Virus record (IMG/VR): IMGVR_UViG_3300044710_000064
Location: 1-64,000 of that record
DNA length: 64,000 nt
Reading direction: 5' to 3' (one strand)
From: a virus
Shown: positions 10,859-62,304 of the stretch, piece after piece
Numbering within the stretch: the stretch's first letter is position 1
Layout of the letters: each line of letters starts with the position of its first letter
Position numbers and translations under genes: made by a program
Notes under the pieces: model-generated
Told to the model about the DNA's origin: nothing
The model's database searches: none
Seen by the model: the letters and a program-made list of their open reading frames with translations, nothing else

Positions 10859-11821
10859 GTGGGCATTACTTCAATCGAATGGACCGACCGCACGTGGAAT
10901 CCGGTGCGCGGCTGCTCGCGCGTCTCCCAGGGATGCGTCAACTGTTACGCAGAGCGGCAAGCGGCGCGGTTCGCCGGCGAAGGAGAGCCGTTCCATCAGT
11001 TCGTCGCGAAGGTTAATGGACATCCCGCCTGGACCGGCAAAGTAGAACTGGTAGAGAAGCACTTGGAAGATCCGCTGCACTGGCGCAAGCCCTGCAAGGT
11101 ATTCGTGAACTCGATGAGTGATCTGTTCCACGAGGCGCTCCTAGATGAGGCCATTGATCGCGTGTTCGCAGTAATGGCGCTATGCCCGCAGCATACGTTC
11201 CAGATTCTTACGAAGCGACCGGAGCGGATGCACGAGTATCTGTTGCGCCCCTACCGAACAGGTGATATCCAGGTGCATGTCAAAGAGCTTATCGACGTGC
11301 ATCATTTACCCGATGCGGTGAACCGCGTATTTTACGGGCGCGTGGAAGAAGCGAAAGCGCTGTTTGACCGCATACTGGCCGAGCCTGGCCCCTATCCTGA
11401 ATTCTCAGACACCGACATATGGCCGCTGCGAAATGTTTGGCTCGGCGTCTCAGTAGAAGATCAAGCCAACAAACATCGCATCGACATATTGCGCCAAGTT
11501 CCGGCTGCGGTGCGTTTCTTATCGATTGAGCCGTTGCTTGAGGACATCGGCAAATTGAACCTTGAAGGCATCCACTGGGTGATAGTGGGCGGAGAATCAG
11601 GACCAGGCGCGCGCCCACTTAGAGTTGAGTGGGTCCGGAGTATTCAGGCGCAGTGCAGGACCGCGGAGGTAGCGTGCTTCGTGAAGCAGCTCGGTGCTAA
11701 CCCGTTTGAGGGAGGGATGCCATTGCTGCTGGAGGACCGCAAAGGTGGCGACTGGGACGAATGGACTGTTGAATTGCGGGTGCGTGAATTTCCAAAAATT
11801 CTTGCGGAGGTCTCTGCTTGA
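10859..11821 (+). CDS. Phage Gp37/Gp68 family protein (DUF5131)
   Basis: 320 residues from a GTG at 10859. Diagnostic features: SIEWTDRTWNPVRGC near the N terminus with SQGCVNCYAE, a three-cysteine cluster likely to hold iron-sulfur; then FVNSMSDLFHEA, QILTKRPERM, RFLSIEPLLEDIG and WVIVGGESGPGARP. These are signatures of the phage Gp37/Gp68 (DUF5131) family, a predicted radical-SAM-like group. The substrate is unknown. It is not co-located here with a TcmP partner. It lies directly before the integrase. Confidence 0.85.
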   Translation: MGITSIEWTDRTWNPVRGCSRVSQGCVNCYAERQAARFAGEGEPFHQFVAKVNGHPAWTGKVELVEKHLEDPLHWRKPCKVFVNSMSDLFHEALLDEAIDRVFAVMALCPQHTFQILTKRPERMHEYLLRPYRTGDIQVHVKELIDVHHLPDAVNRVFYGRVEEAKALFDRILAEPGPYPEFSDTDIWPLRNVWLGVSVEDQANKHRIDILRQVPAAVRFLSIEPLLEDIGKLNLEGIHWVIVGGESGPGARPLRVEWVRSIQAQCRTAEVACFVKQLGANPFEGGMPLLLEDRKGGDWDEWTVELRVREFPKILAEVSA

Positions 11822-11883
11822 GCGCCAGCATCACATCCAACGGGCTAGCCCTGATTCGAAGTATGCTTTCCGAAGAGGAATGC

Positions 11884-13041
11884 ATGCCCCGAAAATATCA
11901 GAACCCTAAGTTGGAAGTTCGCCGAGATGTAGCCAGGCCCTTTTACTTCGTCCGTGTCAGCGTTAAGCGCATGACCGAGGATGGTCCGAAGCCAAAACGT
12001 AAAGTTGAGTTCATCGGATGGGTGGATGAGACGCCAAAGAAAGCCGCAATGAAGCGCCACGCGGAAATCCTGGAAGTAGTCAACGCGGGTCGAGTTCTGA
12101 TCCAATCCCAACTTCAGTTTAAGGACGTATGCACGCGGTTCCTTTCCGTCCGTCTTCCCCAGCTCGGAGTCTGTGCTCAAAAGAAGTACAAGACCCAGAT
12201 CGAGAGACACATACTTCCGGCCTTCGGGGAATTGAAGCTTTGCGACATTGATGGAGCGGCAGTGGAAGGCTGGTTGAACGCGAAGAAAGAAGCGGGGCTC
12301 GGATGGTGGACGAGAATTGACCTCAAGGGCGTTCTGTCAGCCATCTTCACCGCGGCGAGAGCTTGGAAGCTCTGGGACGGAGCAAACCCCACCGAGGGAG
12401 TGAGGATCGGCCGGAAGCGCCTGGTTCGAGAGAAGCGATTGCTCACGGTCGACGAACTTCGATTGCTGCTGGGTTCCTTGGCTGACCGTCCGAAGTTCAT
12501 CGTCCTGATAATCTTCGGTCTCGGATTGCGGATTAGTGAGACCTTGGGACTACGCTGGTCGGATATCGACTTCCAGGCGAAAACGATCACCATCCGGCGC
12601 CGCTGGCATCGGGGGGACCTGAGCGAAGAAAACGAGACCAAGACAGAAGCCTCGAACGCCACCATGCAGCTTGGGGCTTCGATGCTTCATGAATTCCAGA
12701 GCCGCGTCCCTCTGGACCGGCGGGACGGGTTCATATTTGTTGGGGACGATGGACACGTTCCGCCGGATGACAGAGATTTGCTGAGAGAAGAATTTCGTCC
12801 GGTGGTCAAGCGGCTGAAGCTCTACTACAGGGGATTCGGCTGGCACGCCTTTCGCCGGCAGAATATCACCTGGCGGCAGCAGATTGGCGGGGCTACTCCG
12901 CTAGAGGCCCAGCGCGCCGCGCGCCACGCCTCCCTGGACATGACCTACCTCTACACGCTTTCGGATGCGGAGCGGGAGACGGCTCAGCAACAAGCTATGT
13001 TTGACAAGTTGATGGAGATGCCGGAGGGACCGAAGCAATGA
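11884..13041 (+). CDS. int: Tyrosine recombinase, phage integrase
   Basis: 385 residues. ATG 11884 is chosen over the TTG at 11818 because GAAGAGGA precedes it. An N-terminal strand-rich arm-binding region (FYFVRVSVKR) and a SAM-like core-binding domain lead to the catalytic domain with R216 (GLRISET), H321-x-x-R324 (WHAFRR), H348 (ARHAS) and the nucleophile Tyr357 (TYLYT). It should catalyse site-specific integration at tRNA-Ala, since an attP core lies 960 bp downstream. The nuclease gene at 13038 overlaps its stop by 4 bp. Confidence 0.93.
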   Translation: MPRKYQNPKLEVRRDVARPFYFVRVSVKRMTEDGPKPKRKVEFIGWVDETPKKAAMKRHAEILEVVNAGRVLIQSQLQFKDVCTRFLSVRLPQLGVCAQKKYKTQIERHILPAFGELKLCDIDGAAVEGWLNAKKEAGLGWWTRIDLKGVLSAIFTAARAWKLWDGANPTEGVRIGRKRLVREKRLLTVDELRLLLGSLADRPKFIVLIIFGLGLRISETLGLRWSDIDFQAKTITIRRRWHRGDLSEENETKTEASNATMQLGASMLHEFQSRVPLDRRDGFIFVGDDGHVPPDDRDLLREEFRPVVKRLKLYYRGFGWHAFRRQNITWRQQIGGATPLEAQRAARHASLDMTYLYTLSDAERETAQQQAMFDKLMEMPEGPKQ

Positions 13042-14206: not shown

Positions 14207-14228
14207 TTTGGCGGGTATTTGGCAGGTA
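14207..14228 (+). repeat. Tandem 11-bp repeat downstream of attP
   Basis: TTTGGCGGGTA is followed directly by TTTGGCAGGTA, with one mismatch. It ends just before the start codon at 14232. It could be a second type of integrase or excisionase binding site, or an operator for the following gene. Confidence 0.35.
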
Positions 14229-14231
14229 CGC

Positions 14232-14678
14232 ATGCCTGAACTTTCAATCGTCCCCGTCTCCCTCGATGAGGCTAATGCCTTCGTGCGCGAGCACCACCGG
14301 CATCATGGCCCAGTACCGGGCGCGAAGTTCTGTATCGGGGTCGCGCTGGAAGATCGAATCGTAGGGGTTGCGATTGTCGGCAGGCCGGTCGCACGGATGT
14401 CAGATAACGGCTGGACCCTCGAAGTAAACCGCACCTGCACGGACGGAACAAAGAACGCCAACTCTATGCTCTACGGCGCTTGCCGCCGCGCGGCCTTCGC
14501 ACTAGGCTACCGAAAACTCATCACCTACACGCTGCCATCGGAGAGCGGCGATAGCCTTCGAGGGGCAGGCTGGAAGTGCCTTGGACAGGCAGGCGGTGGA
14601 AATTGGTCCCGCGTTTCAAGGCCGAGAGTTGATACGCATCCGACACAAACCAAATTGAGATGGGAGGCCCATGCCTGA
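14232..14678 (+). CDS. XF1762-family putative acyltransferase-like protein
   Basis: 148 residues from ATG 14232. Conserved blocks: ANAFVREHHRHHGP, GAKFCIGVALEDRIVGVAIVG, LEVNRTCTDGTKNANSMLYG and LITYTLPSESGDSLRGAGW. These are hallmarks of the XF1762 phage family, thought to have a GNAT-like fold. Substrate unknown. It is the first gene past attP and is phage-like, which argues that the tRNA fragment is attP and not a prophage end. Confidence 0.8.
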   Translation: MPELSIVPVSLDEANAFVREHHRHHGPVPGAKFCIGVALEDRIVGVAIVGRPVARMSDNGWTLEVNRTCTDGTKNANSMLYGACRRAAFALGYRKLITYTLPSESGDSLRGAGWKCLGQAGGGNWSRVSRPRVDTHPTQTKLRWEAHA

Positions 14679-14979
14679 ACAAAACCCCTCTTCCGATCCC
14701 ATTGTCATTGTCGAGCGCATCATGACGATGCACTGGGACATCTTCGCCTGTGACTGCTGGATTTGTAAAACGGGGAGGTTAGCGGGCTGCCGACCACGGG
14801 AAGAATACTTGCGGTGGAGGGGTCATTTCAACTGGGTCGATGCATTCCATCCAGGTCCGGAAATACTACCTCCAGCGAGACCAAAAGACGATTTCAGCGA
14901 ACGGCTCGAACGTATCGAGCAAAAACTAAACCAACTAATTCAGGAGGTATCCGAGCAGCCAAAGGAGAACAAAGCCTAG
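14671..14979 (+). CDS. Hypothetical protein with Cys motif and coiled tail
   Basis: 102 residues. HWDIFACDCWICKTGRLAGC carries four cysteines that could bind zinc, and WRGHFNWVDAFHP follows. The C-terminal DDFSERLERIEQKLNQLIQE is a short coiled coil. Overlaps the previous gene by 8 bp. No family recognised. Confidence 0.55.
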   Translation: MPEQNPSSDPIVIVERIMTMHWDIFACDCWICKTGRLAGCRPREEYLRWRGHFNWVDAFHPGPEILPPARPKDDFSERLERIEQKLNQLIQEVSEQPKENKA

Positions 14980-14980
14980 C

Positions 14981-15394
14981 ATGGCCACCACAACCGTCAA
15001 GTCGGAATCGCAGCAATTGACCGAGCAACTCATCGATCAGATTGCGGCGATGCTCGCCGAGCAGACCGACAACATTCAAACCGCACTCAATAACGCAACC
15101 AAGGAGATTTTGAAACAGATGGCAACGAACGCGGATGCACTTCAGACCCAACTAGCCACGGTCACTACCAACCTGACCGCCGTCTCTGGCTCACTAACCA
15201 CAATAAACACCGGGATTCAGAATCTCGATACTCTTATCACGACTTTGCAGCAGCAGATCGCGGCGGGGAGTTCGACCCTGAGCGCGTCTGACCAAGCGGC
15301 ACTAACAGCCGTGGTTAACGCTTCTTCGGCGCTGGCCACGCAAGCGGCAGCTATCAGCACAACACCGCCGGCAGCGCCGCCGGCGAGTTCATAG
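14981..15394 (+). CDS. Coiled-coil protein
   Basis: 137 residues, almost wholly heptad-like helix (LTEQLIDQIAAMLAEQTDNI onward) and ending in an Ala/Pro tail. The terminal codons contain a GC-rich inverted repeat (15366-15372 with 15379-15385) just before the structured region at 15395. No enzymatic motif. Possibly an oligomeric scaffold-like early protein; function unknown. Confidence 0.6.
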   Translation: MATTTVKSESQQLTEQLIDQIAAMLAEQTDNIQTALNNATKEILKQMATNADALQTQLATVTTNLTAVSGSLTTINTGIQNLDTLITTLQQQIAAGSSTLSASDQAALTAVVNASSALATQAAAISTTPPAAPPASS

Positions 15395-15997
15395 CGAGTT
15401 TACTGGCGTACCGGGGAGCCACGGATCGCATAATTCCCCTGTTAGCGGGCAAGCTGCCGTGCCGGTGAAATAGCTGGCGGAAAAATTCGGCTCAGGCCCT
15501 CGCGAAACGGTAGTGAGAGCGATCACGGGCGACGATCCGGTACGCCAGTAGCGATCTCCATGGAGCGCTACTATAACGGCGCGGCGATGCGGTTAAACCG
15601 GTCTTACTCGTTTTCGCCGGTATGTCGCGCTGGAAGTCGGACCGCTTCACTCTAACCGTGTGGTCCCGAGCGGTGGGGAAATCGGGCAAAGGTTCGGGCA
15701 ACAGGCGTCACGGGTTTTGCCGGCTGATACCGTTGCCCGTTGAAAGCGGCTCGCTTGCCCGGGGGGAGTTGGGTAGGCGAGTCGCCTGAAAATGTCTGCT
15801 GGCGTCGGTGGTATTGATCCGCTGGAACCCGGAAAGACTCCCGGCTCACGCGGTTTAGTCACTACGGTTAGTTCCGTAGAGCGAAACCCTCCGGATGAAG
15901 AGCATAGCCACTACCGGCAGGTTGCGAAGGCACGCCAGCGAGTTTTTCAAGGAGTGGGCGCTGGTTTACTTGCCATTTTCCGGCGCCCCAATTTTTA
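15395..15997 (+). ncRNA. Large structured non-coding RNA candidate
   Basis: A 616-bp stretch without a convincing gene folds into many nested, mostly perfect helices: 15401-15414 with 15537-15550 (14 bp); 15577-15586 with 15623-15632 (10 bp with wobbles) enclosing 15597-15601 with 15617-15621; 15639-15645 with 15660-15666; 15683-15689 with 15755-15761 enclosing 15695-15702 with 15732-15739; hairpin 15775-15787; and a 3' domain 15798-15805 with 15932-15939, 15806-15812 with 15910-15916, 15817-15821 with 15892-15896, 15852-15856 with 15884-15888 and hairpin 15862-15879. A terminator ends it. Size, phage context and architecture recall the ornate phage RNAs GOLLD and ROOL, but membership is untested. 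No own promoter was identified. Confidence 0.75.
15956..15997 (+). terminator. Intrinsic terminator of the structured RNA
   Basis: GGGCGC (15956-15961) pairs with GCGCCC (15983-15988) and is followed by CAATTTTTAG. Placed at the 3' end of the folded region and 14 bp before the next start codon, it defines a plus-strand transcript end. The 21-nt loop is longer than ideal, so read-through into 16011 is possible. Confidence 0.6.
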
Positions 15998-16010
15998 GAG
16001 AAGGAGTTTA

Positions 16011-16334
16011 ATGACCGACCTGTTACAGATTCTGCTCGACATGCGGAGCGGCCAAGTCGCGGCTGACTGCAATCTAAAATTCAACGAGGTTCTCAAGGCC
16101 GTGCTGGAAACAGGCGGCAAAGGGAAACTCACTATCGATCTATTGATCGCGCCTTCCAAGATGGGCATGGGCGGCGCGGTCGTAGAAGTCGAAACCACTC
16201 ACGAGTGCAAGATGAAAAAGCCCGAACTAGCAATCGGCAAGAGCTTTTTCTTCGTCATGCCGGACGGCACTCTAACCCGCGAAGATCCGGCTCAGGCCGC
16301 GATGTTCCAACAGCAACAGGAGTTCAAAAGATAG
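16011..16334 (+). CDS. Conserved phage protein next to DUF2303
   Basis: 107 residues with AGAAGGAG as ribosome binding site. An N-terminal helix (LLQILLDMRSGQVAADCNLKF) leads into strand-rich GKGKLTIDLLIAP and HECKMKKPELAIGKSFFFV. This small protein commonly precedes DUF2303 genes in phages. Function unknown. Confidence 0.6.
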   Translation: MTDLLQILLDMRSGQVAADCNLKFNEVLKAVLETGGKGKLTIDLLIAPSKMGMGGAVVEVETTHECKMKKPELAIGKSFFFVMPDGTLTREDPAQAAMFQQQQEFKR

Positions 16335-16336
16335 CT

Positions 16337-17170
16337 ATGCAAGACATCAATCCTAAAAGTCTCAATGAACTTGTCCGCCTGGGAACCGATGCCGCGAAGC
16401 CCCGCGAAGTTCCGGGAGGAAATATCCCCTACGCTCTGGTGCCAGAAGGCTTCACCCTTCAGACGCTGGAAAACTTCATCCACAACGAACACAACGCGAC
16501 TCCGGAGCGCGTTAAAGCTACCGTGTCTGTGTTGGACGCGGAGTCCTTCGTTGAATACTACACGCTTTTTAACGATCCGAATAGTCGCATGTTCGCCGAC
16601 GAGACCAATCTGAGTGTCACGGCGATTCTGGATTACCACGCGGCCGGAGAGGGAACGCCACGCTGGGGCCACCATCGGCTCAAGTTGGGACTGCGGAAGT
16701 CGGTCGAATGGGAACGCTGGACTGGCTCTAACGGAAAGCAGCTAACCCAGCAGCAATTTGCCGAATTCCTGGAGCAGAACTCACTTGACATAAGCTCTCC
16801 TTCGCCTGCCAGCATCGTGGAAGTGGCGCGCGATCTGGACGCCCACACCGAGGTCGAATTCGGGGCCGGTCAAAGAATGGAGAATGGGCAAGTCCGTTTC
16901 AGATACACGGAGCAGATCAAGGCCACCGTGGGCGGCGGTTCGATGGAGGTTCCGGAGCGATTCACGCTCAGCATATCCGTATTCATCGGCGGAACTCCGA
17001 TAGCGGTAGACGCGCTTCTGCGATTCCGGGTGAAGGACGGGAAACTCGTTCTGTGGTACACGCTCATTCGGCCCGAGCAGGCCACGCGAGACGCATTCCT
17101 GGCGATCCGCAACCAGATCGCGGACGTGCTGAAGCTCACCATCATCAACGGCACTCCCAACCAAGGCTAA
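16337..17170 (+). CDS. DUF2303 (YfdQ-like) protein
   Basis: 277 residues from ATG 16337. The family layout is clear: YALVPEGFTLQTLENF near the N terminus, VTAILDYHAAGEGTPRWGHH in the centre, then SIVEVARDLDAHTEVEFG and a beta-rich C terminus (PERFTLSISVFIGG). DUF2303/YfdQ proteins are common in early regions of temperate phages; their role is not established, though links to recombination or phage-DNA protection have been suggested. Paired with the gene at 16011. Confidence 0.82.
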   Translation: MQDINPKSLNELVRLGTDAAKPREVPGGNIPYALVPEGFTLQTLENFIHNEHNATPERVKATVSVLDAESFVEYYTLFNDPNSRMFADETNLSVTAILDYHAAGEGTPRWGHHRLKLGLRKSVEWERWTGSNGKQLTQQQFAEFLEQNSLDISSPSPASIVEVARDLDAHTEVEFGAGQRMENGQVRFRYTEQIKATVGGGSMEVPERFTLSISVFIGGTPIAVDALLRFRVKDGKLVLWYTLIRPEQATRDAFLAIRNQIADVLKLTIINGTPNQG

Positions 17171-23518: not shown

Positions 23519-24241
23519 ATGCCCGAACTCCTCGAAGGCAAGCCCTTCAATCCCTACGGACGTTTCTATAACGCCTGGGTCCCAACACAACTTCTCCAAT
23601 CAGTAGAAATCTCAGACGGTGCCAAGCTGGCCTACGGACTCCTTCGAAAGTTCGCCGGCAAAGACGGAGCCTGCTTTCCCCTTCAATCCACGCTCGCGCG
23701 AGAACTCGGCTGCAAAACCAGAACGGTCAACAAGTACATTAAGGAGCTCAAGGGTTCCAAGTTGATCGAAGTGAAGCGCCGCGGCCGTGGGCGCTCGCTC
23801 TCATACGTCTTCCTGTGGAAAAAGGAGTTGAATTCCGGTCAATTGTTTCTGCCTGGTAAGCAGGACGATGTAAGTCTGACACGCACAAACGTGCAAGACG
23901 TAAGCGGTTCAGGAAGCGGATCACTAAATTGGAACAGTAGTAGTAGGGCCTGTGGAAATGTGGAAATCTCAGGCGATCACCCCTCGGGCGAGGCTATCGC
24001 AGAGAATCAGGAAGAGGAGGGAAGTTCAGAACGATCGGGGGAGTCACTACCAGAGGAAGTGCAGGTTAATCCGAGGCAGGGTAAAAACGGGGACGCTGCG
24101 GGGCCAAAGCTGGCGCGGGCTGGGTGGAATGTGGTAATGCTAGGGAATCAGACCCCTCAGGATACCGATGTCAAGGCTGGGCTAGAAATGCGAAATACGA
24201 TAAAGGAGTTGGCTCAGATGAAAAAGATTACAAACCGATGA
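23519..24241 (+). CDS. HTH protein, candidate replication initiator
   Basis: 240 residues. The N-terminal 100 residues form a winged-helix domain of the HTH_36 type (FYNAWVPTQLLQSVEISDGA, LAYGLLRKFAGKDGACFP, LARELGCKTRTVNKYIKELK). This is the usual N-terminal domain of phage and plasmid replication initiators of the DnaD/RepA type. The rest is Gly/Ser/Glu-rich and apparently disordered. As no polymerase or helicase is visible, host replisome recruitment is a plausible inference. Confidence 0.65.
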   Translation: MPELLEGKPFNPYGRFYNAWVPTQLLQSVEISDGAKLAYGLLRKFAGKDGACFPLQSTLARELGCKTRTVNKYIKELKGSKLIEVKRRGRGRSLSYVFLWKKELNSGQLFLPGKQDDVSLTRTNVQDVSGSGSGSLNWNSSSRACGNVEISGDHPSGEAIAENQEEEGSSERSGESLPEEVQVNPRQGKNGDAAGPKLARAGWNVVMLGNQTPQDTDVKAGLEMRNTIKELAQMKKITNR

Positions 24242-52223: not shown

Positions 52224-52474
52224 TGAACTCCGATTCCCCGTTGTCGTTCGTGCCAGAGCGGCCATTGATAGCGATGCGTACCCCAAATGACCGTAACTAC
52301 TGGCGGGATATTCAGCTGTTGGCCTTCCGAAGTCCGCTGAATTCGGAGCCCGCAATTGATCTTTCTACTCAAGCGCAATGTCGCCTGAATGTAGATTCGA
52401 GAGTCTATTTCCCATTCGTATCGGGCGATGGCCAGAACGAGGCTAAAGTCCCAAATGTTCAGCACTAGCTTCAT
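52220..52474 (-). CDS. Small protein between portal and protease
   Basis: 84 residues, overlapping the portal stop by 4 bp and the protease start by 4 bp. Beta-rich (RIYIQATLRLSRKINCGLRI; VVTVIWGTHRYQW). Translational coupling on both sides supports it. No family recognised. Confidence 0.5.
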   Translation of the reverse strand: MKLVLNIWDFSLVLAIARYEWEIDSRIYIQATLRLSRKINCGLRIQRTSEGQQLNIPPVVTVIWGTHRYQWPLWHERQRGIGVQ

Positions 52475-54114
52475 TGCGGCCTCTCGGTAATCGGTTCTCC
52501 GTGGATTGAAGGAGCAAGCGCATTGGTCGCCGCTTCTTCTTCGCTGTCCTGTGTGGGAGCGGCAGTAGTCGGAGTCTCGGGCTGAGTCTCGCGGCCGATC
52601 AGCACCTTGTTCGGATCGCTGTCATAGATGGTTCCGAGGTCAGCCGCACGTTGACGCTCTACCGCTTGCTCGTTGTCCACCGTCTCAGGATCAAGACCGG
52701 ATTCTCTGACCACGCGGGCACGGGAAGTAAATCCGCACCGGACGCTTGTTTGTGCTGCCTGGACTTCTTTCAGCGGATCGACCCACTGCCAGCCAGGTGA
52801 GACCCATTCGCAGTTCTCGAAGTCATAGGGATTATCAAAGTAGGCATTTCCGAGTTTCAAGGCTCCCGAGAGCACCGCTTCTTTCATCCACCGCTGTTTT
52901 ACTGGCTCGCAGAATTGATGAACGATGACGTTGTACTGAAACTGCTCGCAGGCCCGCCGGAATTCGAGAAGCCCGGCCCGGATTGAGGAGTAGTTGACGC
53001 CTCCCAGATCCATAGTGACCTGCTCGTAGGTCATGTTTATGCCGGCGGCGAATTTGTGGGCTTGCGTGCTTATGAAGCTTGAGAAGTCCCCCGCCTGGGG
53101 CAACGAGGGAAACGTGATTCCCTCGCCGGGGAATAACTGCTGCATGGTTCCCGGTTCGAGTTTGATTACATTGGTGCCGATATCTTGCTGTGGAACGAAC
53201 GGCGGATTCAGCGGATCTTCCAGGCCGGGCGAAGTTGGATAGTTGGGCGCCGGAGTCATGACCTGATCTTCGGGAGCTGGCTTAGTGATGAACCCGGCGA
53301 ACATGGCAGCTACTTTCTTGCGCACTAACTCGGCGTCAGAATATTGTTCGAGCTCGTAGAGGAGAGCGAGCACGGCGGTCATGTGCGGCTCGCCCCGGAG
53401 TTGTCCGATCCGAAGAGGCTTATAGATGTGGCGGATTTCCTCCGCCGGAATCTCGACATACTGAAGTCCCGACAACGGATAGAACATTGTTTCGCCGGGA
53501 TGCTCTTTATAGAAGTGGTAAGCGACCCTTCTTCCGTCCGAATCGAATTCGATTCCGCACCGGACCATGTTCTTGAAATCGCCGGGGAGAATATTCAGGA
53601 AGACCGGTAACTGCTCGCCTTCCATCAACTGAAGTTGCAGAGGAATGAAGAGCCGATCTTTTGCCGGTCTCAACCGATACCGGCTGAATACTTCGCCACC
53701 TTCGAAGATTTCCCTCGCCGCTAAAGCCTGGAGTCCGTAGAAATCAGATTGTCCCGACCAATCGGCTTGCCTCGTCCATTGCGCCCAGGCCTGTTGGATC
53801 TTGACTCGCACATTCGGATCAGGATGCTGCCAGTGCGGTTGAATTCCCGACCCGATGACATTCGATTCAAACTTGTCAATTGCGCTTCTCGCCCACGGGT
53901 TATTCCGGACCGCATCCCGGCTTCTCGACCGAAGCTGATCGAGGTTTCCCCATAAGAGGGTTGAAGGGCCGAGGCGAGTGGTGTACCAGCCCTGGGCCCT
54001 TCTTCCTGTACCACCAGCGTCGTAAGGGTACGCCGAAGCCCGTCTCTTAAGAATGGGTGGAGGCTCGTGACCCGATTGGCGGTACAACGTCAGAAATGAT
54101 TCGATTTGAGGCAC
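52471..54114 (-). CDS. Portal protein, lambda type
   Basis: 547 residues from a GTG at 54114. RDAVRNNPWARSAIDKFESN, VIGSGIQPHWQ, FEGGEVFSRYR, PLQLQLMEGEQLP and IRHIYKPLRIGQLRGEPHMT are lambda-portal-family blocks. It forms the dodecameric DNA entry ring at one capsid vertex. It lies between gpW-like and protease genes, as in lambda. The C-terminal tail is Glu/Thr/Pro-rich. Confidence 0.9.
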   Translation of the reverse strand: MPQIESFLTLYRQSGHEPPPILKRRASAYPYDAGGTGRRAQGWYTTRLGPSTLLWGNLDQLRSRSRDAVRNNPWARSAIDKFESNVIGSGIQPHWQHPDPNVRVKIQQAWAQWTRQADWSGQSDFYGLQALAAREIFEGGEVFSRYRLRPAKDRLFIPLQLQLMEGEQLPVFLNILPGDFKNMVRCGIEFDSDGRRVAYHFYKEHPGETMFYPLSGLQYVEIPAEEIRHIYKPLRIGQLRGEPHMTAVLALLYELEQYSDAELVRKKVAAMFAGFITKPAPEDQVMTPAPNYPTSPGLEDPLNPPFVPQQDIGTNVIKLEPGTMQQLFPGEGITFPSLPQAGDFSSFISTQAHKFAAGINMTYEQVTMDLGGVNYSSIRAGLLEFRRACEQFQYNVIVHQFCEPVKQRWMKEAVLSGALKLGNAYFDNPYDFENCEWVSPGWQWVDPLKEVQAAQTSVRCGFTSRARVVRESGLDPETVDNEQAVERQRAADLGTIYDSDPNKVLIGRETQPETPTTAAPTQDSEEEAATNALAPSIHGEPITERPQ

Positions 54115-59510: not shown

Positions 59511-61160
59511 TTAGTGAAACGCCACCACCATTACACTGTTGCTTGATGCATTCTGCTGTGCCGTCCAGCCAAAGTTGATCTGTGTGGTGTTGCCCGACCA
59601 GTAATGCGCTGCGACATCGCCATTGGTCATATCGTTTGCATCACCGCCGCAGACACCTGCTGTCGTCACCGTGCAGGCATTCGTCAGAGTAGGGCCTGGA
59701 TAATCCAGGACTACGCCAGTCGGCTGCGAACTGGTCAAGTAAGGGCCGTTTCCGGCCGACCCTATCGCGATGAACAGATCGGCGGAATTCCCAGGCGTTG
59801 CAAGGGGTAAGCCAGTACATGTGACATCGCTGCCCGAAGTTCCTTGGCAATTCCCTGCGCCCGTGCCCGTGCTTATGGCGTTAAAGACGGCGCTGGAAGT
59901 TACCTGAGTGCTTCCGCTCCCCGCGCTAAAGCCGGTATCAAGAGCCGTGACATTCGTGCAGTAGAATCTGATGAGATCCACATTCGCGCCGCCGCTTACC
60001 GTGGTTACCACAAATGTGTTCGGGTTAGAGATCGTGACCCCCAGGGAGTAGAACACTTTCGGGTTACCGCCGCCATTCGAGACGGCCGTGTACGTGTCGC
60101 TGTTGCTATCCGTAATAGAGCTGAGGCTCGCCGCGTCGTCGGTTATGATGACGCCAGTTGTGTTCGTCGGGCACCCTACATTGGTGACCAGCGTGATCGC
60201 GCCACCCGTCATGGTCGCAGAGGACACTAGAACAGCTTTGCCGGCCGATGGAGCTGAACCACCCGAACCAGGCTTGAAAGCCGCCGCCATGATCGTGAAG
60301 GAATCATGTGTTGACTGAGAAATTGTTAATTGCGGGGTGAAGGTCGTGCCGGTCGCACTGCAGTAAAATTCGGCGTGGCCCGCGTAGGTAGACTCGTCAA
60401 CCAGTGTGCAGTTGGAAGGCACCGTGATCGAATTCCAGATGTCTGAATAGTCAATGTTGCCGAAGATTGTTTCGTCGTCCACCTCAACATAAACGAGGTC
60501 GCCGATTACCACCGTGAGCGCCGTACCAGAGATATTAGGCGCAGTATTGTTGACCGGGACCACGGCGGTCTTGCACGAACTTGTACGGAGGGCGCTCGTG
60601 GTGGCCACATTGTAAAAGTTTCCAATGTTGAAGTATGAATCACTAATCTTATCCGGGTGCGTTTCCGTAACCTGCGTTACTCCAGACGCCGGCGGCACAA
60701 AGTTAGCGGAGTAGTAAATGCCGTGATCGGCTCCGTTTGCCACTGCCAAGCCAGCGTCTTTGCAGCCAGAGCCAGCGGTGAATACCGCGTTCCACGTATT
60801 GCCGGTGCCGTTATCCGTAAAGGTTGGAGCGCACGGCGCTGTACACGAATGCGGATAGCCGTTTCCGGTCGTCGGGTTGTTTGGCCATGCACCCGACATA
60901 ATGACAAGTGATCCAGATGTGACCGCGTGAGGAGAACCAGCGGGATCAAGCGCAAAGACGTTCCCGTTCACTCCCGTGGTTGAGCCACCTCTTCCCTTGT
61001 CGGTGATGTTGTTCCCAAAAAATTGGTTTAGGGTTGGCGTGCCCGCGCTCGAAACGACCCCGAGTTTGTGCTTCTTTCTGAAAAGCACATCCTCGATCGG
61101 GTCCTGTGGAACGAGTGCTAGCCCTATCAGCATGAGGCTGAGAATGGAAAAGAAATTCAC
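59511..61160 (-). CDS. Secreted virion-like beta protein
   Basis: 549 residues. N-terminal signal or anchor (FFSILSLMLIGLALVPQDP), then Thr/Ser/Gly/Asn-rich beta sequence with paired cysteines (PHSCTAPCAP; GCPTNTTG). Contains jelly-roll-like blocks (NTWNAVFTAGSGC; SFTIMAAAFKPGSGGSAPS). Probably an extracellular or tail adhesin. Confidence 0.5.
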   Translation of the reverse strand: MNFFSILSLMLIGLALVPQDPIEDVLFRKKHKLGVVSSAGTPTLNQFFGNNITDKGRGGSTTGVNGNVFALDPAGSPHAVTSGSLVIMSGAWPNNPTTGNGYPHSCTAPCAPTFTDNGTGNTWNAVFTAGSGCKDAGLAVANGADHGIYYSANFVPPASGVTQVTETHPDKISDSYFNIGNFYNVATTSALRTSSCKTAVVPVNNTAPNISGTALTVVIGDLVYVEVDDETIFGNIDYSDIWNSITVPSNCTLVDESTYAGHAEFYCSATGTTFTPQLTISQSTHDSFTIMAAAFKPGSGGSAPSAGKAVLVSSATMTGGAITLVTNVGCPTNTTGVIITDDAASLSSITDSNSDTYTAVSNGGGNPKVFYSLGVTISNPNTFVVTTVSGGANVDLIRFYCTNVTALDTGFSAGSGSTQVTSSAVFNAISTGTGAGNCQGTSGSDVTCTGLPLATPGNSADLFIAIGSAGNGPYLTSSQPTGVVLDYPGPTLTNACTVTTAGVCGGDANDMTNGDVAAHYWSGNTTQINFGWTAQQNASSNSVMVVAFH

Positions 61161-61161
61161 T

Positions 61162-62304
61162 TTACTCGGAAATGTTCTTGATTTCCAGCCAGCGGAACGT
61201 GACGTTGATCGTTCCGCCCGTAAGCGCCGCGTTGCCGAGATTCACGCAAACACCTTGACCGGTTCCGATCAGTATCTGGGGTTTCAATCGCCCATTCCAA
61301 ATGAAAAGATCATCAGGAACCGTGGAGGCAGAAACCAAAAATGCTGTATATGCTTGATGAATTGTGCCGACTGAAGCGCCGGCGGTCGGCCCCGTTCCCG
61401 TGTAGCTGACCGGCGTTGTGCTTGCGGCCGCGTAGTTGGTTACATCCCCGCGGACCGCAGTCATGTTGGCGGAAGTTCCGCCACTTTCCGCAGCGGAGTG
61501 CCGGATAAGCTGCACATTGACTAAGCCAGCAGTCGTCTGAATCCCGCTGACATCTGCCTCGTAGAGGAGTACGGTGTTGGTTGAATTGCCATAAATGCAG
61601 GCGTTGTCCGTGGTACTGGATGCCGCGAAATTGGCGCTGGCTTCGTAACTCGCCGGTCGAAGCCCTGGGATCAAGCTGGTCCAAAGCGTACCATCCGTTC
61701 CCACATTGAGCGCGGCATCCCGGCCTTGAGTTTCTGCCGAGCCATTGGACGGATCGGTTTGGATAATGCCGGGGAGTTCTCCGAGGCGATTAGTTCCCGC
61801 CGCCGCGCCGTTGTTCGAAAGTGCGCCATTCACGTTGGGAGTATTGGCCACCGTGACCGGCAGGGCAACTGCATAACAGACGCAGGTCGCGTAGGGCGTC
61901 ACATTTGCGGTGCCCGTGATAGCTGTCGTCAACTTCAAAACGAGCTTGTAAGCGCCCGCCATGTAAATCAGAAATTGCTTGTTCGTCGATGCCTGCAAAG
62001 TGTAGGGCATCGAGACTTGAGCATATGTCGAACTCGTCGGATCGACGACCTGCCACGCTTGCAGGTTTACGAGGTTTCCGTCTCCTGGATCAGCTTGAAA
62101 CTGAATCGCGCCGCCTGTTAGCGTCGTCGTCTGATCGAGGGTTACCAGCACGTGAGTGCCGGATGCCGCCTGGGCGAGTGTTTGCGTGGTGTTATTGGAG
62201 GTCGACGATGTCCAAACTGCTCCCGTATAGGGCGTGTTGCCGCACCCGGAAGCTTGCGCAAAGACAACCGAAGCGCCGAGCAAAATGAGAACGAGCAGCT
62301 TCAC
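61162..62304 (-). CDS. Secreted virion-like protein
   Basis: 380 residues with a clear signal peptide (MKLLVLILLGASVVFAQASG). Beta-rich body with ALPVTVANTPNVNGALSNNG, a motif often seen in phage structural proteins, and a C-terminal LIGTGQGVCVNLGNAALTGG, then TFRWLE. A phage surface protein with an export signal. Confidence 0.55.
   Translation of the reverse strand: MKLLVLILLGASVVFAQASGCGNTPYTGAVWTSSTSNNTTQTLAQAASGTHVLVTLDQTTTLTGGAIQFQADPGDGNLVNLQAWQVVDPTSSTYAQVSMPYTLQASTNKQFLIYMAGAYKLVLKLTTAITGTANVTPYATCVCYAVALPVTVANTPNVNGALSNNGAAAGTNRLGELPGIIQTDPSNGSAETQGRDAALNVGTDGTLWTSLIPGLRPASYEASANFAASSTTDNACIYGNSTNTVLLYEADVSGIQTTAGLVNVQLIRHSAAESGGTSANMTAVRGDVTNYAAASTTPVSYTGTGPTAGASVGTIHQAYTAFLVSASTVPDDLFIWNGRLKPQILIGTGQGVCVNLGNAALTGGTINVTFRWLEIKNISE

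Follow-up and report, generated by a model that had tools for sequence, protein, structure and literature searches.

A gene-free segment of a temperate soil phage as a candidate large structured RNA

To our knowledge, very few classes of large structured phage RNA have been described, and their functions are not established. ROOL and GOLLD RNAs are frequently, not obligatorily, encoded close to tRNA genes, and homo-oligomeric RNA nanocages and helices backed by covariation among homologues are further characters of these two families. ROOL is a phage-encoded, multi-domain, non-coding RNA of about 600 nt without established function, and GOLLD is a large structured RNA found in phages and prophages and characterized by a conserved 3' domain (PMC12286853). 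A third large RNA, OLE, occurs mostly in extremophilic Bacillota (PMC12054373). The present analysis was carried out on a window of 64,000 nucleotides, which spans positions 1-64000 of a virus record 69,059 bases in length and in which a segment free of genes was considered as a candidate RNA of this kind. As in the case of ROOL and GOLLD, the segment is carried by a phage, as indicated by the portal, head, integrase and initiator genes of the window. Vicinity to tRNA genes is not shared with them, no tRNA being detected by ARAGORN in the window.

The phage carrying the segment is temperate and originates from soil. The window codes for a lambda-type portal, a head-maturation protease, a major head protein, an integrase, a Mom-like protein and an O-like replication initiator, and this gene set is that of a temperate tailed phage. 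The following features locate the segment in the window:

11818-13041: integrase, 2.4 kb from the segment
14981-15394, + strand: upstream gene, coding for a 137-aa coiled-coil-like protein without assigned function; the segment begins right after its stop codon
15395-15999, + strand: candidate large structured RNA, whole segment, from the upstream stop codon to the downstream RBS
16011-16334, + strand: downstream gene, phrog_204 protein without assigned function, preceded by the RBS GAAGGAG
16337-17170, + strand: DUF2303 protein (phrog_210)
23519-24241: O-like replication initiator
around 50-57 kb: head-packaging genes
52471-54114, - strand: lambda-type portal

The host is likely a member of the Acidobacteriota, because the top portal relative among genome contigs belongs to a Bryobacteraceae MAG (49%) and DUF2303 relatives (37-39%) were found in 3 of the 399 genomes of the class of this MAG. 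One of these three relatives adjoins DUF5131 and phrog_204, which are both present in this phage as well. The DUF5131 protein of the phage (10859-11821; Pfam E 1.5e-86) also gave strong scores with the PADLOC candidate-defence models PDC-M41B and PDC-M30B. The Mom-like protein, of the XF1762 family, is encoded at 14208-14678, and over 131 bases its gene shares about 75% identity with acetyltransferase genes from prophages of Mycobacterium abscessus.

A gap of 616 nt (15395-16010) separates the upstream stop codon at 15394 from the phrog_204 start at 16011. Genes were called with a codon-plus-RBS model trained on the early module, and no coding ORF was retained inside the gap by model score. 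The codon scores of the segment were negative in all six frames and its six small ORFs gave no match of note in Pfam, PHROG or phage tblastn searches. The orphan ORFs of the segment measure 55-71 aa; the least bad coding candidate, a 68-aa ORF at 15792-15998, has neither RBS nor detected homologue. These results are in agreement with an earlier sequence-only reading of this DNA, which had described the segment as gene-free; protein coding through it is supported neither by codon usage, in any of the six frames, nor by protein comparison. The same reading had presented it as the only long gene-free stretch of the genome. This is correct for the early module, where the segment is the largest gap and the runner-up measures 310 nt, but not for the late module, where gaps of 798, 522 and 505 nt remain with this gene model and show no special folding.

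Folding of the + strand gave a series of confident helices arranged as a 5' domain, three hairpins, a 3' domain and a terminator-like hairpin:

15400-15551, + strand: 5' domain, closing helix 15400-15415/15536-15551 (mean pair probability 0.95) with a perfect 14-bp Watson-Crick core, 15401-15414/15537-15550
15424-15429/15519-15524, + strand: inner helix GAUCGC/GCGAUC of the 5' domain (mean pair probability 1.0)
15456-15491, + strand: hairpin of the 5' domain with loop GAAAUA
15577-15632, + strand: hairpin domain with a 10-bp helix, 15577-15586/15623-15632, including 3 G-U pairs (mean pair probability 0.95), and an inner 4-bp helix
15695-15739, + strand: hairpin of 8 bp, CGGGCAAC/GUUGCCCG, with inner GUCA/UGAU (mean pair probability 0.93)
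15746-15785, + strand: unbroken 17-bp hairpin GCGGCUCGCUUGCCCGG/UUGGGUAGGCGAGUCGC, arms 15746-15762/15769-15785, 5 G-U pairs and a 6-nt loop (mean pair probability 0.98)
15787-15949, + strand: 3' domain, three helices with mean pair probabilities of 0.91, 0.89 and 0.69; closing helices UGAAAA/UUUUCA (15787-15792/15944-15949) and GCUGGCGU/ACGCCAGC (15798-15805/15932-15939), inner hairpin CUACGG/CCGUAG at 15862-15879
15956-15996, + strand: terminator-like hairpin GGGCGCUGG/CCGGCGCCC, then CAAUUUUU, directly before the phrog_204 RBS

All the helices listed by the sequence-only reading were found letter for letter, but one of them, the 7-bp helix 15683-15689/15755-15761, is absent from both the MFE and the centroid structures. 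Its 3' arm is occupied by the 17-bp hairpin, the best-folding feature of the segment, which that reading had overlooked, so that the 7-bp helix is unlikely to form in the same fold. The terminator announced at the 3' end corresponds to a hairpin (15956-15988) with a 9-bp stem and a 15-nt loop followed by the U-run CAATTTTTA; the element is nevertheless terminator-like only, as a terminator scan made no call at 15956-15996. No sigma-70-type promoter match was found, and confident partners are assigned to only about 48% of the bases; both points weigh against the structured-RNA reading. CTGGCGT/ACGCCAG recurs in the helices that close the 5' and 3' domains, and a pairing across the domains could be drawn between 15403-15412 and 15929-15938 (9 of 10 pairs), which may reflect a switch, a duplication or chance.

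The abundance of complementary stretches claimed for the segment was borne out by comparison with 200 dinucleotide shuffles. The perfect 14-bp helix was reached in none of them and the best helix with G-U pairs allowed (17 bp) in two. When helices of at least 10 bp with G-U pairs allowed were counted, 13 were found on the + strand and 6 on the - strand, for a shuffle mean of 7.0; 13 were reached in 6 of the 200 shuffles. The fold of the 605 nt of the + strand has an energy of -261.8 kcal/mol (z = -2.9 to -3.7), whereas that of the - strand departs less from the shuffles (z = -2.1 to -2.5), and windows of 200 nt within the segment gave mixed z-scores, from -0.8 to -3.15. Folding scores of -2.5 to -4 occur in the coding DNA of this phage too, and folding energy alone is therefore no proof of a structured RNA. 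The coding stretch 60500-61200, for example, reaches z -3.95 (605 nt, + strand) and -3.48 (200 nt, - strand). The confident + strand helices contain about 18 G-U pairs; since such pairs are mismatches in a DNA inverted repeat, they fit an RNA and not a repeat acting as DNA. The lack of genes, the significant long helices and these G-U pairs make a structured RNA on the + strand plausible.

The explanation that we tentatively prefer is that the segment encodes a phage-borne, structured noncoding RNA, read from the + strand and acting in trans. Such an RNA would measure roughly 550-600 nt, would be co-transcribed with the early genes or start at a promoter within the upstream gene, and would end at the 3' hairpin. 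Its stable domains, five or six in number, would follow one another along the chain: first a 5' domain with a closing helix of 15-16 bp, then three hairpin domains, next a 3' domain with closing helices of 6+8 bp, and last the terminator-like hairpin at the 3' end. By analogy with ROOL and GOLLD (PMC12286853), it might act as a folded RNA, possibly bound to protein or self-associating. The anatomy is interesting, and the case for a function of the putative RNA is weak.

The search for known families was negative. No Rfam family matched at the gathering score in the 64 kb, and with permissive filters at E<=10 only three short and irrelevant matches were obtained in 14500-16800. Covariance models of GOLLD, ROOL, OLE, HEARO and group I and II introns gave no match in this region even at E<=10, and the suggestion that the segment belongs to GOLLD or ROOL was abandoned. 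Homologous intergenic regions in related phages, which the sequence-only reading had proposed as material for a covariation test, were found neither by blastn nor by covariance models derived from this one sequence (R1 for the 5' domain, R2 for the 3' domain), two approaches that strongly diverged RNAs escape. With blastn, phages, plasmids, the records of the viral portal relatives and those of the DUF2303 relatives all failed to yield a homologue of the segment. Several hundred Acidobacteriota genomes were searched with the segment DNA and with R1 and R2: blastn gave short scattered matches in one genome sample and none at 1e-4 in another, and the two models matched themselves plus weak, chance-like sequences. 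Among these, L121 lies upstream of a host gene and has broken outer helices, and L344-L350 lie inside open reading frames; they were rejected as chance, since isolated, dispersed and weak matches of this sort are to be anticipated in a search of hundreds of genomes. In viral contigs, the pattern GGTGAAATAGCTGGCGG (4 matches) and the gapped pattern GTTTAGTCA-N-AGCGAAAC (28 matches) were chance-like as well, mostly in apparently coding DNA. In the relative phage G002, the 468-nt folded gap L017:4397-4864 was also discarded as a different intergenic region, located between - strand genes and without homology to the segment. This gap is itself gene-free (z -3.5) and contains a GC-rich hairpin resembling a terminator, besides several short inverted repeats.

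The gene pair phrog_204-DUF2303 is widespread, and in relatives that possess the same downstream genes the segment is missing. The gap upstream of phrog_204 has a median of 64 nt over 64 viral loci, and in L260, the nearest relative detected (phrog_204 63% and DUF2303 47% identical), a coding gene abuts phrog_204 at the place of the segment. Compared with these relatives, the segment therefore looks like an insertion confined to its own lineage.

This synteny bears on two other explanations, both of which we consider unlikely, to the same degree. In the first one, the segment would be a long structured 5' leader controlling in cis the phrog_204-DUF2303-Dam operon, the hairpin before the RBS being an attenuator or a translation switch and the remainder a sensing or antitermination domain. 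The position of the terminator-like hairpin and its U-run immediately upstream of the RBS and start of phrog_204 is compatible with this role, as is the orientation of the segment, which is co-directional with the operon and lies on the same strand as every early gene. However, relatives with the same operon do without such a leader, no riboswitch or leader family of Rfam was matched, and a leader of 600 nt would be long. In the second one, the segment would be a neutral or degenerate insertion, such as a non-autonomous mobile element or the remains of a gene, with functionless helices. Its lineage-specific character, the persistence of the orphan ORFs and the failure to find homologues all agree with this proposal. 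In addition, the 9-bp direct repeat AGCGAGTTT is present near both segment ends (15393-15401 and 15937-15945) and the inverted CTGGCGTACC/GGCACGCCAG adjoin it, a possible trace of insertion, or chance. On the other hand, AGCGAGTTT was rejected as a target-site duplication, because the inverted ends are out of line with it and the segment has no second copy, either within the record or among the collections searched. Moreover, Pfam, PHROG and phage tblastn searches revealed no protein remnant, the helix lengths exceed those of the shuffles, and useless DNA tends to be lost by phages. A DNA element active in double- or single-stranded form (replication origin, attachment or packaging site) would account for inverted repeats clustered in non-coding DNA and for a perfect Watson-Crick 14-bp helix, but it is highly improbable given the many G-U pairs, the absence of iterons (only two-copy short repeats), a GC content of 0.60 above the 0.55 of the genome, and the distant positions of the initiator, integrase and head-packaging genes.

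Returning to the trans-acting RNA, a further step would be to regard it as representing a new class among the large multi-domain RNAs of phages, folded and trans-acting or self-assembling, unrelated in sequence to ROOL and GOLLD and present in Acidobacteriota phages. We hold this to be doubtful; at present the segment is one orphan sequence, a lead and not a class. If true, RNAs of this type would have arisen repeatedly, one more class having appeared independently in a host group that has received little study. Compared with OLE, the segment has a similar length of about 600 nt and a fold predicted to be elaborate as well, whereas OLE is not from phages and its model is not matched. Compared with GOLLD, it is likewise large, phage-borne and predicted to be structured, but it is shorter than GOLLD, which often exceeds 800 nt, its window is devoid of tRNAs, and the GOLLD model fails to recognize it. 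The resemblance to ROOL extends to the length of about 600 nt, the multi-domain predicted fold, the phage origin and the non-coding character; the segment differs from it by the lack of a model match at E<=10, of a tRNA island and of detected relatives. As judged from the predicted fold, the segment would thus be like ROOL and GOLLD in kind while not being a member of either.
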